This document shows, one piece after another, positions 15,078 through 29,189 of a stretch of DNA of 64,000 bases (position 1 is the first letter of the stretch; every line of letters starts with the position of its first letter). The DNA comes from Tsuneonella mangrovi (GTDB lineage Bacteria; Pseudomonadota; Alphaproteobacteria; Sphingomonadales; Sphingomonadaceae). The stretch is from contig NZ_CP022889.1 in the NCBI RefSeq assembly GCF_002269345.1, positions 930,001-994,000 on the forward strand. Direction: 5' to 3'. The notes below the pieces were generated by a model that was not told where the DNA came from, did not search any database, and worked only from the letters and a program-made list of their open reading frames with translations. A program made the position numbers and the translations under genes.

Positions 15078-15180
15078 CGGTCTATTTGCACATTACGACA
15101 CGTGTAAGTGGGGGTTTCTGTTGCTAGGCACCCCCGGGCCCCCGGTTTCCGATTCTGTTACCCGGTTCGGTCCGAACCGT

Positions 15181-15452
15181 GCTCATAGCTTTGTAAGATC
15201 AGGCCGTTAGGCCGTCAGGTTACGCAGCGAGAGCAAGTGCTTCGTTGTCGTTGGCACTTATGAGTTTTGAGCCTTTAACGGGTTACTCAGCCCGGGCGAA
15301 AACAGTGCTTTTCAACACACGTCGATCCTGGTTCGGCCCCGTCATCGTGCCCTCTATTGAGAGGAGCGGTGGTGGAGCCGCCGGGTACTGCCCCCGGGTC
15401 CGCTGTGCCTATTGCACACCGCAATTTATCGCCATAGCCCGCCGAAACGGGC
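15181..15452 (-). ncRNA. ssrA: Circularly permuted two-piece tmRNA (alphaproteobacterial ssrA)
   Basis: tmRNA rescues stalled ribosomes. On the minus strand the acceptor piece comes first. It contains CCCGGGGGCAGTACCCGG (T-arm) and ends GGCTCCACCA at 15370, with CCA encoded. An intervening segment of about 29 nt (15341-15369) follows. The coding piece then begins GGGGCCGAACCAGGATCGAC at 15340. GGGGCCG pairs with CGGCTCC as the acceptor stem. The tag frame (15255-15220) encodes ANDNEALALAA and a TAA. This order (3' piece before 5' piece) is the known alphaproteobacterial permutation. The outer ends are approximate; hairpins continue to about 15110. Confidence 0.95.
15220..15255 (-). other. tmRNA proteolysis-tag reading frame (ANDNEALALAA-stop)
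   Basis: GCC resume codon at 15255-15253, then codons for A-N-D-N-E-A-L-A-L-A-A and TAA at 15222-15220. The AND start and the LAA end match the degron logic of known tags (SspB/ClpX recognition). Confidence 0.95.
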
Positions 15453-15458
15453 ACACCT

Positions 15459-15486
15459 TATATAGGCGCTGGGTGCTTAATGTGAA
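15459..15486 (-). promoter_or_regulatory. ssrA: Likely ssrA promoter
   Basis: On the minus strand TTCACA (15486-15481), 16 nt, then TATATA (15464-15459) would place transcription start near 15452, about 80 nt before the encoded CCA of the acceptor piece. It is one of the few AT-rich spots in the region. Confidence 0.6.
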
Positions 15487-15508
15487 GTGAGCGGAGGTTT
15501 TGTCTCAT

Positions 15509-25632: not shown

Positions 25633-26370
<738 letters not shown>

Positions 26371-26404
26371 TGACACTGCAGCGCCTAGCGCGCGTTGGGC
26401 CTGA

Positions 26405-26989
26405 GTGGAACCAGGAGAGACGATCATTCGCACCCCCCGCCTATCCGCAAAGGCCGCTATTGCGCTTGTGTGTCTCGCCGCGAGCGGTTGCACCGCTCCG
26501 GCACCGCCGCCATTACCCCCGGTCGCCAAGCCCGCCCCCAAACAGGTACCAAATCCGACGCCGGAACCGGTCACGCTCGACCCCGCACCAAGCTTCACCA
26601 ACTGGATGGATGCCCCGGTGACCCCGGGCGATTGGTCCTACACCGCCGAGGCTCGGGGCGGATTGGCACAGTTCGGCGTTGCAGGCGCCGCGCCGCTATT
26701 GTGGATGCGCTGCGATCGTGCGCGCGGCACAGTCACGCTGTCGCGCGCGGGGACTGCGCCTGCCGCCGTGCCGGTTCGGATCATCACCGAAACAGAGACC
26801 CGATTGCTCAACGGATTGCCGCAGCGAGATGGCACCGCCGCACTCACGGTGACACTGCCTGCGGCCTCGTCGTTCCTCGACGCGATCGCGTTCTCGAAAG
26901 GGCGCTTCGCGTTCGAGACCCCTGGCCTTCCGACACTCTACGTGCCCAGCTGGCCCGAGGTTACCCGTGTTATCGAGGATTGCCGCTAG
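26405..26989 (+). CDS. Putative lipoprotein, unknown function
   Basis: About 194 aa from GTG 26405. A lipoprotein signal with lipobox AASGC (Cys near 29) is followed by a proline-rich linker and a beta-rich domain (WSYTAEARGGLAQFG ... FLDAIAFSKGRFAFETPGLP). The start is uncertain: the only good Shine-Dalgarno, AGGAG at 26413-26417, precedes in-frame ATC 26423 and ATT 26426, not the GTG. Divergent from tlyA, 34 bp apart. It is followed by a hairpin. Confidence 0.75.
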   Translation: MEPGETIIRTPRLSAKAAIALVCLAASGCTAPAPPPLPPVAKPAPKQVPNPTPEPVTLDPAPSFTNWMDAPVTPGDWSYTAEARGGLAQFGVAGAAPLLWMRCDRARGTVTLSRAGTAPAAVPVRIITETETRLLNGLPQRDGTAALTVTLPAASSFLDAIAFSKGRFAFETPGLPTLYVPSWPEVTRVIEDCR

Positions 26990-27006: not shown

Positions 27007-27028
27007 GGCGGGCATAAAAATACCCGCC
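27007..27028 (+). terminator. Hairpin after the lipoprotein gene
   Basis: GGCGGG (27007-27012) and CCCGCC (27023-27028), extended by one pair, with a 10-nt A-rich loop. It starts 18 nt past the stop; no T-run follows. Confidence 0.5.
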
Positions 27029-27184
27029 GGAGGTGGCGGGTCACAAACGCTGATACTGACGGGGAAAAAGATAATTGCAAGACTTGTGTTGCGATTCGTT
27101 TGGACTCACATTGCCAGTCAGAGGTCGCGGTGGCCGCGGTTCTCGACCCCGCAGTGAAACGCGAAGGGTTTGGCTTTCTAGCGC

Positions 27185-27199
27185 GAAAGGAGGTGATCC
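27185..27199 (+). promoter_or_regulatory. 15-nt perfect anti-16S complementary ribosome-binding site
   Basis: GAAAGGAGGTGATCC is exactly complementary to the conserved 3' end of 16S rRNA (GGATCACCTCCTTTC). Typical genes here match 4-6 nt. GGAGG lies 7 nt before the ATG at 27201. Confidence 0.85.
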
Positions 27200-27200
27200 G

Positions 27201-27257
27201 ATGTCTCATGGTTCAGCAGGGAGGTCGGTGACGACCCGCGCGGAGCACTATCGGTAG
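27201..27257 (+). CDS. 18-codon small ORF in an independent short transcript unit
   Basis: Encodes MSHGSAGRSVTTRAEHYR, basic and hydrophilic. It sits behind the strongest possible Shine-Dalgarno. The last codons and stop fall in a hairpin: CTATCGG (27248-27254) pairs with CCGATAG (27269-27275). A second hairpin (AGCGGC 27286-27291 with GCCGCT 27299-27304) and a terminator follow. The unit could be a translated small RNA, a leader peptide, or an RNA whose role is to bind 16S rRNA. Nothing else in 26990-27419 looks like a gene. Confidence 0.6.
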   Translation: MSHGSAGRSVTTRAEHYR

Positions 27258-27312
27258 ACTTCACTTCGCCGATAGAGGCTTCGTGAGCGGCTTCACTGGC
27301 CGCTGACCATGC

Positions 27313-27356
27313 GAAGGGCGGTTCCCGACGGGCGGAGCCGCCCTTCTCATCTTTTC
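27313..27356 (+). terminator. Rho-independent-like terminator of the small-ORF unit
   Basis: GAAGGGCGG (27313-27321) pairs with CCGCCCTTC (27338-27346), followed by TCATCTTTTC. It gives the unit a defined 3' end about 90 nt after the small stop codon and 64 nt before the next gene. Confidence 0.75.
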
Positions 27357-27419: not shown

Positions 27420-28085
27420 ATGGCCAGCTATCTCTCAAACTCCAAGGCGCGCAGGTTCTACGATCTCGTCGGGCGGATCGAGGATACGCAGGCGTTCTAC
27501 GAGGACCCGGCGCTCGATATCCTTGTCGCTCGCGGTCACTTCGAAAACGCCACGTCGATGTTCGAATTTGGCTGCGGCACGGGTCGTCTGGCCGAGCGTT
27601 TGCTGTCGGGCCCGTTACCGCCCGACGCGGGCTATACCGCGTGCGACATCAGCCCGAAGATGGTCAGCCTTGCACGAGCCCGGATCGCGAAATTCGGCAA
27701 CCGCGCAAGCGCCTTCGAGGCGAGTGGCGATGCGGAGCGGGATTTCGGGGAAGGTCATGTCGATCGGGTGGTCACAGCCTACGTGCTCGACCTCCTTTCG
27801 CCTGCAGACATCTCGGCTTTCCTGTCGGCCGCTGCGAAACATATGCTCCCGGGCGGTCTCCTCTGCGCCGCAAGCATCGCACCGGGCGAAACGCTTCCCT
27901 CGAGCGTGATCATGGGTGTGTGGGCGAGGTTGCACGGCCTCGCCCCGATCCTCACCGGCGGATGTCGGCCGATCGCACTCAGAGACCTGATCGGTGCGGC
28001 CGGATGGAATATCATCGACGCACAGAAGGTCGCGGCATGGGGCGTGACGTCGCAGGTCGTGATCGCTTCTCCCCCCTTGCCCTGA
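27420..28085 (+). CDS. Class I SAM-dependent methyltransferase
   Basis: 221 aa. Rossmann motif I EFGCGTGRLAERLL (about 49-62), post-I ACDISPKMVSLARARI (about 74-89), and a later LPGGLLCAASI. The short N-terminal cap begins MASYLSNSKARRFYDLVG. The substrate (small molecule, lipid or quinone) is unknown. It lies 27 bp upstream of ilvE on the same strand. Confidence 0.88.
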   Translation: MASYLSNSKARRFYDLVGRIEDTQAFYEDPALDILVARGHFENATSMFEFGCGTGRLAERLLSGPLPPDAGYTACDISPKMVSLARARIAKFGNRASAFEASGDAERDFGEGHVDRVVTAYVLDLLSPADISAFLSAAAKHMLPGGLLCAASIAPGETLPSSVIMGVWARLHGLAPILTGGCRPIALRDLIGAAGWNIIDAQKVAAWGVTSQVVIASPPLP

Positions 28086-28112: not shown

Positions 28113-29189
28113 ATGGATTTCACGCATCTCCCCCACCCCTCGCCTACCCCTGCAGACGCGCGGGAAAAGGCGATTGCCGACCCCGGTTTCGGCACGGTGT
28201 TCACCGACCACATGGTCCTGATCGAATACGAGGAAGGCCGTGGGTGGCACAGCGCCAGCGTGGGCCCGCGCGAGCCGATCACACTCGATCCGGCCGCCAG
28301 TGTCCTCCACTACGCGCAGGAAATCTTCGAAGGGATGAAGGCCTACAAGCACCCAGACGGGAGCCTGGCGCTGTTCCGCCCCGAAGCCAACGCGCGGCGC
28401 TTCAATGCCTCGGCCGACCGTATGGCGATGCCGCACCTGCCAGAGGACGTATTCGTCCAGTCGGTGCAGGAACTGGTGCGCAAGGATGCCGACTGGTTCC
28501 CCGCGGTCGAAGGCGGCTCGCTCTACCTACGGCCATTCATGTTTGCCTCGGAAGCGTTTCTCGGCGTGCGTCCGGCGAAGAAGTACAAGTACCTCGTGAT
28601 CGCCAGCCCGGTGGGCAACTACTTCAAATCTGGCGTCCCGGCAGTGAGCATCTGGGTCAGCCGCGATTATGTCCGCGCGGCACCGGGCGGCACCGGTGCT
28701 GCCAAGACCGGCGGCAACTACGCCGCCAGCCTCGTTCCGCAGGCCGAAGCGATCGCCAAGGGGCACGACCAGGTCGTGTTTCTCGACGCGGTCGAGCGCA
28801 AGTGGATCGAGGAGCTGGGCGGCATGAACCTGTTCTTCGTGATGGACGACGGCAGCGTGATCACTCCTCCGCTCGGCGGCACGATCCTTCCGGGCATAAC
28901 CCGCGACAGCCTGATCCAGTTGCTGACCGAGCAAGGCCTGAAAGTCCGCGAAGAACGCTACTCGATCGACCAGTGGCGGGCCGACGCCGAAAGCGGCAAG
29001 CTTGTGGAAACGATGGCCTGCGGCACCGCCGCGGTGGTGACCCCGGTAGGCCGGGTCGAAGGACCCGAAGGCGCATTCACGATCGGCTCCGGCGGTCCTG
29101 GCCAGCTGACGCAGGCGGTGCGCGAAAAGCTCGTCGGCATCCAGCGCGGAACAATGGCGGATACCCACGGCTGGGTCACCGCCGTTTGA
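28113..29189 (+). CDS. ilvE: Branched-chain amino acid aminotransferase (class IV PLP, type II)
   Basis: 358 aa. Final step of Val/Ile/Leu synthesis and first step of their breakdown. YAQEIFEGMKAY (68-79), PLP Lys198 in KTGGNYAAS, and later MACGTAAVVTPVG match BCAT. Convergent with the EamA gene. Confidence 0.96.
   Translation: MDFTHLPHPSPTPADAREKAIADPGFGTVFTDHMVLIEYEEGRGWHSASVGPREPITLDPAASVLHYAQEIFEGMKAYKHPDGSLALFRPEANARRFNASADRMAMPHLPEDVFVQSVQELVRKDADWFPAVEGGSLYLRPFMFASEAFLGVRPAKKYKYLVIASPVGNYFKSGVPAVSIWVSRDYVRAAPGGTGAAKTGGNYAASLVPQAEAIAKGHDQVVFLDAVERKWIEELGGMNLFFVMDDGSVITPPLGGTILPGITRDSLIQLLTEQGLKVREERYSIDQWRADAESGKLVETMACGTAAVVTPVGRVEGPEGAFTIGSGGPGQLTQAVREKLVGIQRGTMADTHGWVTAV

Follow-up and report, generated by a model that had tools for sequence, protein, structure and literature searches.

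A divergent CC2171-like RNA of alphaproteobacteria combines an anti-16S segment with a conserved short reading frame

Introduction

Small structured RNAs that contain an open reading frame (ORF) include SgrS and RNAIII, whose peptides are functional, and 6S RNA and the ribosome hibernation factors provide a precedent for buffering a core machine by imitating its substrate. The locus described here lies in a 64,000 nucleotide stretch of the Tsuneonella mangrovi genome (contig NZ_CP022889.1, positions 930,001 to 994,000), referred to below as the window. By sequence inspection it comprises an anti-16S segment, an 18-codon ORF, a long imperfect hairpin and then a terminator, all within 27185-27356 on the forward strand (Table 1). 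It differs from SgrS and RNAIII in that its frame is kept and its peptide is not. A likeness to 6S RNA and the hibernation factors, to which it has no homology, would hold only if the unit buffers a core machine; its would-be target, unlike theirs, is the 30S subunit via the 16S tail, and it has a kept ORF in addition.

The closest described family is CC2171 (RF01867), a Caulobacter sRNA which Rfam lists as non-coding, and for which Rfam 15 brought only a refinement of the structure (PMC11701678). The MH_s33 RNA of Mesorhizobium huakuii, a 215-nt independent intergenic transcript by RNA-seq, is annotated as RF01867 (PMC5596092); by that annotation it is a relative of our unit, and it belongs to another subfamily. 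Two members of Landt's Caulobacter ncRNA set were found to be translated (PMC4117421). Pos19 of Rhodobacter likewise combines a small structured RNA with an ORF (PMC5036791), and Staphylococcus aureus has mRNAs with an extended Shine-Dalgarno, in which pairing close to the start codon continues beyond the canonical Shine-Dalgarno helix (PMC13009471). There the extension amounts to two additional base pairs in ordinary mRNAs, whereas our unit complements the complete tail, once per genome, in a structured RNA.

The CC2171 family itself is already known. In the literature covered (main texts of openly accessible papers) we found no description of the sub-cut-off subfamilies or the class-wide spread, nor of selected full-tail pairing or a kept frame with a free peptide.

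Family identity and architecture

The earlier note on this DNA had recognised no known sRNA, but the RF01867 model, run with relaxed thresholds, aligns to the unit end to end (51.1 bits, E 4e-10, model positions 1-159 of 159), and the consensus structure is followed along the whole alignment with few non-standard pairs. Rfam's gathering threshold is 75 bits, and since the score falls below it we file the unit as a divergent homologue and not as a member of RF01867. When the same model was run against 190 alphaproteobacterial genomes, 39 matched at E <= 0.001, of which only 7 were above the cut-off. The earlier note had also proposed a covariance search. A model built from 19 Sphingomonadales-type sequences (R1) reaches CC2171-type loci over their full length, with E values down to 7e-15, and this is reciprocal to the RF01867 match, the two models recovering each other's loci end to end. 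Such reciprocal full-length matches argue for one alphaproteobacterial family with several subfamilies. A further match, to a sobemovirus frameshift element, was the terminator hairpin scoring below the cut-off and was rejected as chance.

The subfamilies can be told apart by the start of the peptide, which is MSHGS... in Sphingomonadales, V/MSHCH... in the CC2171 type, VSR...LERGVGT in Rhodobacterales and MSSD/E... in a Rhizobiales/Hyphomonadaceae type, and a Bradyrhizobium type has 14 codons. Four CC2171-type loci pass the Rfam cut-off and no tested locus of the other subfamilies does. An RNA catalogued as a 'non-coding' Caulobacter sRNA is spread through the whole class in several subfamilies that this cut-off misses. 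The unit and CC2171 have the same order of parts, namely anti-16S segment, start codon plus TCTCAT, closing helix and terminator. The unit differs in having ATG and not GTG, the closing helix CATGGTTCAGC, 18 codons where CC2171 has 20-26, and a kept ORF where CC2171 is listed as non-coding. The 14-codon ORFs of the Bradyrhizobium type (loci L109, L119, L123, L127, L146, L168 and L173) all end in KRCHLAGIAR; this form might be BjsR1 of PMC5082802, the sequence of which stands in a supplement to that paper.

Table 1. Coordinates of the predicted elements of the unit (window positions).
Feature	Position	Strand	Remarks
Putative sigma-70-type promoter TTGTGT-17-CACATT	27084..27112	+	CTTG and CA columns conserved in relatives
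Anti-16S segment / extended Shine-Dalgarno GAAAGGAGGTGATCC	27185..27199	+	Complements complete 16S 3' tail; unique in genome
18-codon ORF MSHGSAGRSVTTRAEHYR, ATG 27201, stop TAG 27255-27257	27201..27257	+	Start and stop positions conserved
P1a 5' arm CATGGTTCAGC, spanning codons 3 to 6 with a single T bulged out	27207..27217	+	Pairs with 27302-27311; middle pair varies between orders
P1b 5' arm GGTCGG	27223..27228	+	Pairs with 27296-27301; 97% of cells paired, one-sided changes
P2 stem enclosing apical hairpin, limits approximate	27234..27287	+	11 pairs, 6 changed on both sides
P3 apical hairpin CTATCGG-loop-CCGATAG; first loop triplet is the stop codon	27248..27275	+	Predicted folds
P1 3' arm CTGGCCGCTGACCATG	27296..27311	+	Almost invariant in Sphingomonadales
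Intrinsic terminator (stem 27313-27346) and U-rich tail	27313..27356	+	13 pairs, 10 changed on both sides

From the putative promoter, transcription would be expected to start near 27119. This promoter is a weak call, as it is absent from the output of a consensus promoter scan; judged by eye, a TTGAC-like box lies at a similar distance upstream in many family members. Elsewhere in the window, a terminator-like hairpin on the reverse strand (27022-27041) separates the upstream gene from the CC2171-like unit, and 15144-15490 (reverse strand) holds an ordinary permuted alphaproteobacterial tmRNA gene (RF01849, 240 bits).

RNA fold and covariation

The region 27160-27356 is predicted to fold with -96.4 kcal/mol, a z-score of -4.7 against shuffles. 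Two hairpins and a terminator had been described for it; the terminator stands, and the two hairpins are replaced by one long imperfect hairpin, P1-P2-P3. The ORF forms the 5' arm of this hairpin, with P1 starting at codon 3, and the 3' arm pairs back onto the codons. When P1, P2 and the terminator were considered jointly, 95.8% of cells were paired and the covariation score was 0.402 compared with 0.197 for shuffled data (0/500), the changes on both sides being located in P2 and the terminator. Within Sphingomonadales P1 does not vary, but its middle pair can be G-C, T-A or C-G depending on the order. A test of 9-mer P1 complementarity over all orders, informative only for the CATNGT subset, gave no excess (7.5/9 compared with 7.4 when swapped; 3 full matches where 4.25 were expected), which we attribute to the P1 bulge and to helices that sit elsewhere in the remaining clades. 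In predicted folds the stop codon touches a hairpin loop in 27 of 56 Sphingomonadales-type sequences against a baseline of 10%, and this feature is absent from the predicted folds of most other clades.

A kept frame with a variable peptide

The 18-codon ORF is present as first described. At all 90 class-wide sites the start codon opens with A, G or T and never with C, ATG, GTG and TTG all being in use. Of 57 distinct Sphingomonadales-type sequences, 52 have a frame of exactly 18 codons, as do all 19 of the Rhodobacterales type. All three stop codons are used (TAA 28, TGA 19 and TAG 16 among 63 distinct 18-codon sequences), and the other two frames end at scattered positions. As both start and stop are conserved, the ORF is very probably translated.

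The peptide itself behaves differently. In Sphingomonadales the synonymous fraction of single-base codon differences is 0.25 in frame compared with 0.34 and 0.44 in the shifted frames, and in Rhodobacterales the in-frame value of 0.35 is intermediate (shifted frames 0.41 and 0.26), so in the two clades tested no purifying selection on amino acids was seen. Nor was there an excess of synonymous change around the conserved Trp in the TW..AS stretch of the CC2171 type. This test compares related sequences and is a blunt one, because RNA pairing constrains the same ORF bases. Between orders no common peptide motif was found beyond MS. The simplest reading of these comparisons is that translation happens and matters, with its product largely free to vary. 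Codon 2 (Ser, UCN) is a side case, in which the TC is stricter than the anti-16S segment, changing at one of 90 sites in a search that tolerated a single mismatch anywhere; and in most CC2171-type members a Trp codon, TGG, usually within CCTGGA, stands at about codon 15, ~8-12 codons before the stop.

A functional, fast-evolving basic peptide of 14-26 amino acids, with the extended Shine-Dalgarno securing its translation, would account for the kept start, frame and stop, for the MS- start common to all subfamilies, and for peptides that are alike within clades (LERGVGT in Rhodobacterales, KRCHLAGIAR in Bradyrhizobium, TW..AS in the CC2171 type); ribosome profiling has also found 94 Caulobacter CDSs of under 50 amino acids (PMC4117421). 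We nevertheless regard such a microprotein gene as unlikely, since purifying selection is missing in the two clades and around the conserved Trp, MS is all that the orders share, and maximal anti-Shine-Dalgarno pairing is not optimal for output (PMC5303271). The lack of purifying selection also weighs against the suggestion in the earlier note of a very abundant peptide, and so does the way translation depends on pairing strength: in three bacteria, C. crescentus among them, it is best at intermediate pairing, and over-strong pairing is associated with translation that is equal or lower (PMC5303271).

Pairing with the complete 16S tail

The 15-nt perfect match to the 16S tail reported for this segment is confirmed, GAAAGGAGGTGATCC being complementary to the whole alphaproteobacterial tail GGATCACCTCCTTTCT, a sequence read from plasmid-borne rRNA operons of alphaproteobacteria and not from the 16S gene of this genome. 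The predicted duplex has -28 kcal/mol; among 104 long ORFs of the window the best value is -18 and the median -9. A search of the 2.70 Mb genome with the 15-mer gave a single exact match; allowing one mismatch added no site, and allowing two added four. The pattern AAAGGAGGTGATCCNNTGTC occurs in 88/100 genomes of the family with up to 2 mismatches and in 89/385 genomes of the class with up to 1, and it is absent from all ~213 Pseudomonadota outside the alphaproteobacteria; a reversed control pattern was found in 0/385 class genomes. The reservation that the complementarity might be a chance match therefore does not apply, given a single exact genome site that is conserved in relatives and across the class. 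A 16S gene or gene fragment on the opposite strand was also rejected, as the similarity ends at the 15-mer.

Substitutions in a 14-nt segment were taken from the one-mismatch sites across the class, each change being counted once per taxonomic family, by hand. Of the 25 that remained, 18 turn a Watson-Crick pair with the 16S tail into a G-U pair, through A to G changes at TGATCC or AAAGG and C to T changes at the end of the segment. Among transitions, 18/19 give G-U, where chance would allow it at half of the sites (p 4e-5, a statistic that takes in phylogenetically related sequences); five of the seven non-G-U substitutions fall on the last base of the segment. The same trend is seen among the 100 family genomes at up to 2 mismatches (GGTGGTCC, GGTGGTCT and AAGGGAGGTGATTC). 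Comparison shows full-tail complementarity to be under selection, the segment being kept so that the complete 16S 3' tail can pair. Some slack is tolerated, as three close relatives (L006, L007 and L011, two of them from the genus of the window) read AAAGGAGGTGACCGATG, the start-proximal half having lost 2 nt, which shortens the complementarity. Predicted folding leaves the segment only moderately accessible (mean 0.41 unpaired) and gives no support to the idea of a clearly unpaired Shine-Dalgarno, which was dropped.

Selected pairing of the whole tail, including the start-proximal TGATCC, together with strong structure directly behind the start codon, would suit a pure decoy or storage RNA that holds 30S subunits in the full-tail duplex, with translation as a side effect. 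Such an RNA needs no start codon, still less a stop at a fixed position made from all three stop triplets, and it could have an effect only at very high abundance; we consider it rather improbable. A similarly poor prospect, placed slightly lower, is a base-pairing sRNA or sponge, with GGAGG capturing anti-Shine-Dalgarno sRNAs (SisA-D, alpha-r8) or the 3' arm pairing with mRNAs. The core GGAGG fits this, and PMC12559287 describes four Caulobacter sRNAs that share an anti-Shine-Dalgarno 10-mer and are neutralised by the sponge CrfA, but CC2171 is not named in the main text of that paper, it is the 16S tail that the TGATCC half and the G-U pattern match, and the kept start and stop codons are left unexplained.

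Genomic setting

The unit had been described as lying in its own terminated transcription unit, and an intrinsic terminator does follow it. With its free-standing position, this agrees with an independent intergenic transcript, as expected for CC2171. Relatives of the window have tlyA- and ilvE-like neighbour genes (FtsJ/S4 and Aminotran_4 domains), and in other orders the neighbours are unrelated genes on either strand. That neighbours differ between orders argues against a cis-acting leader, which was rejected, and points to a unit that would act in trans. In the window the TlyA-like rRNA methyltransferase gene (25633-26601, reverse strand, FtsJ and S4 domains) is two genes off; many Sphingomonadales relatives have it close to the unit as well, for which common descent is probably the whole explanation.

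A small ORF, hairpins and a terminator just upstream of same-strand genes, with an ilvE-like gene next in 35 related loci, are what a leader-peptide attenuator or riboswitch-like leader of the methyltransferase gene at 27420 or of ilvE at 28113 would look like. This is very improbable, as other orders have different neighbours, often on the opposite strand, the ORF has no run of one amino-acid codon, and alternative antiterminator pairing was not seen. Type I toxin mRNAs, which encode a short toxic peptide and have long-range 5'-3' pairing, resemble the unit in peptide length and hairpin architecture, but the peptides here are not conserved and are hydrophilic (mean GRAVY -0.28, with a hydrophobic 14-amino-acid stretch in 1/147), and this reading was rejected as scarcely credible.

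Proposed mechanism

The comparison suggests that engagement by ribosomes may be the job of this CC2171-family RNA, and of the three ideas in the earlier note, pausing of initiation or binding of free 30S subunits fits the data best. We tentatively propose, with slightly less than even confidence, a mini-mRNA-like regulatory RNA that would dock 30S subunits through the full tail and open its own hairpin by brief translation. A 30S subunit would dock through the duplex between the complete tail and the anti-16S segment. The ATG at 27201 is 1 base past the end of that segment (27199), and a duplex reaching within 1 nt of the start codon would have to open partly before initiation. Since P1 begins at codon 3 and the duplex abuts the start codon, docking and initiation may be separate, slow steps. 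Once started, the ribosome would melt the 5' arm up to the apex, terminate there and release the 3' arm. In this model the RNA would be a ribosome-gated regulator acting in trans, with the peptide as a by-product; through its 30S occupancy and its open or closed state, it could signal how many initiating 30S subunits are available, or buffer their number. The further claim, that ribosome passage over a free-peptide ORF and not the peptide is the function, and that the RNA senses or buffers initiating 30S subunits via the complete tail, we put forward as a doubtful one; on that view the RNA would be to ribosomes what 6S RNA is to RNA polymerase.

Several observations count against the ribosome-gated model, namely the moderate accessibility of the anti-16S segment, the 2-nt deletion in three close relatives and the stop-in-loop arrangement, which most clades outside Sphingomonadales lack. 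In S. aureus a start-proximal extended Shine-Dalgarno helix supports normal initiation, the extra pairs being accommodated (PMC13009471), and this also counts against the model. We are far surer of the homology to CC2171 than of the mechanism. If the proposal is right, the 'non-coding' label of the CC2171 family needs revision, the 30S subunit is named as target, and an RNA readout of initiation capacity could be tested by point mutations.

Occurrence and copy number

The earlier note had allowed for a lack of conservation in relatives, but the unit is kept far beyond Sphingomonadales; by BLAST it is present in 29/60 relatives. No match to it was found in phage or plasmid collections, and a phage or plasmid element was rejected on this ground. 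As a rule there is one copy per genome. Some genomes of the family to which the window belongs have two, one of the Sphingomonadales type and one of the CC2171 type, for example G071 (C1 2922049-2922068, reverse strand, and C1 805113-805132, forward strand, locus L042), and G021 and G765 also gave two hits. These two-copy genomes suggest an old duplication. The element was also seen on contigs labelled Nitrospinota, Gemmatimonadetes and SAR92 (L178, L069 and L153, of which L178 scores 37 bits with model R1), which are either mis-binned contigs or cases of horizontal transfer.
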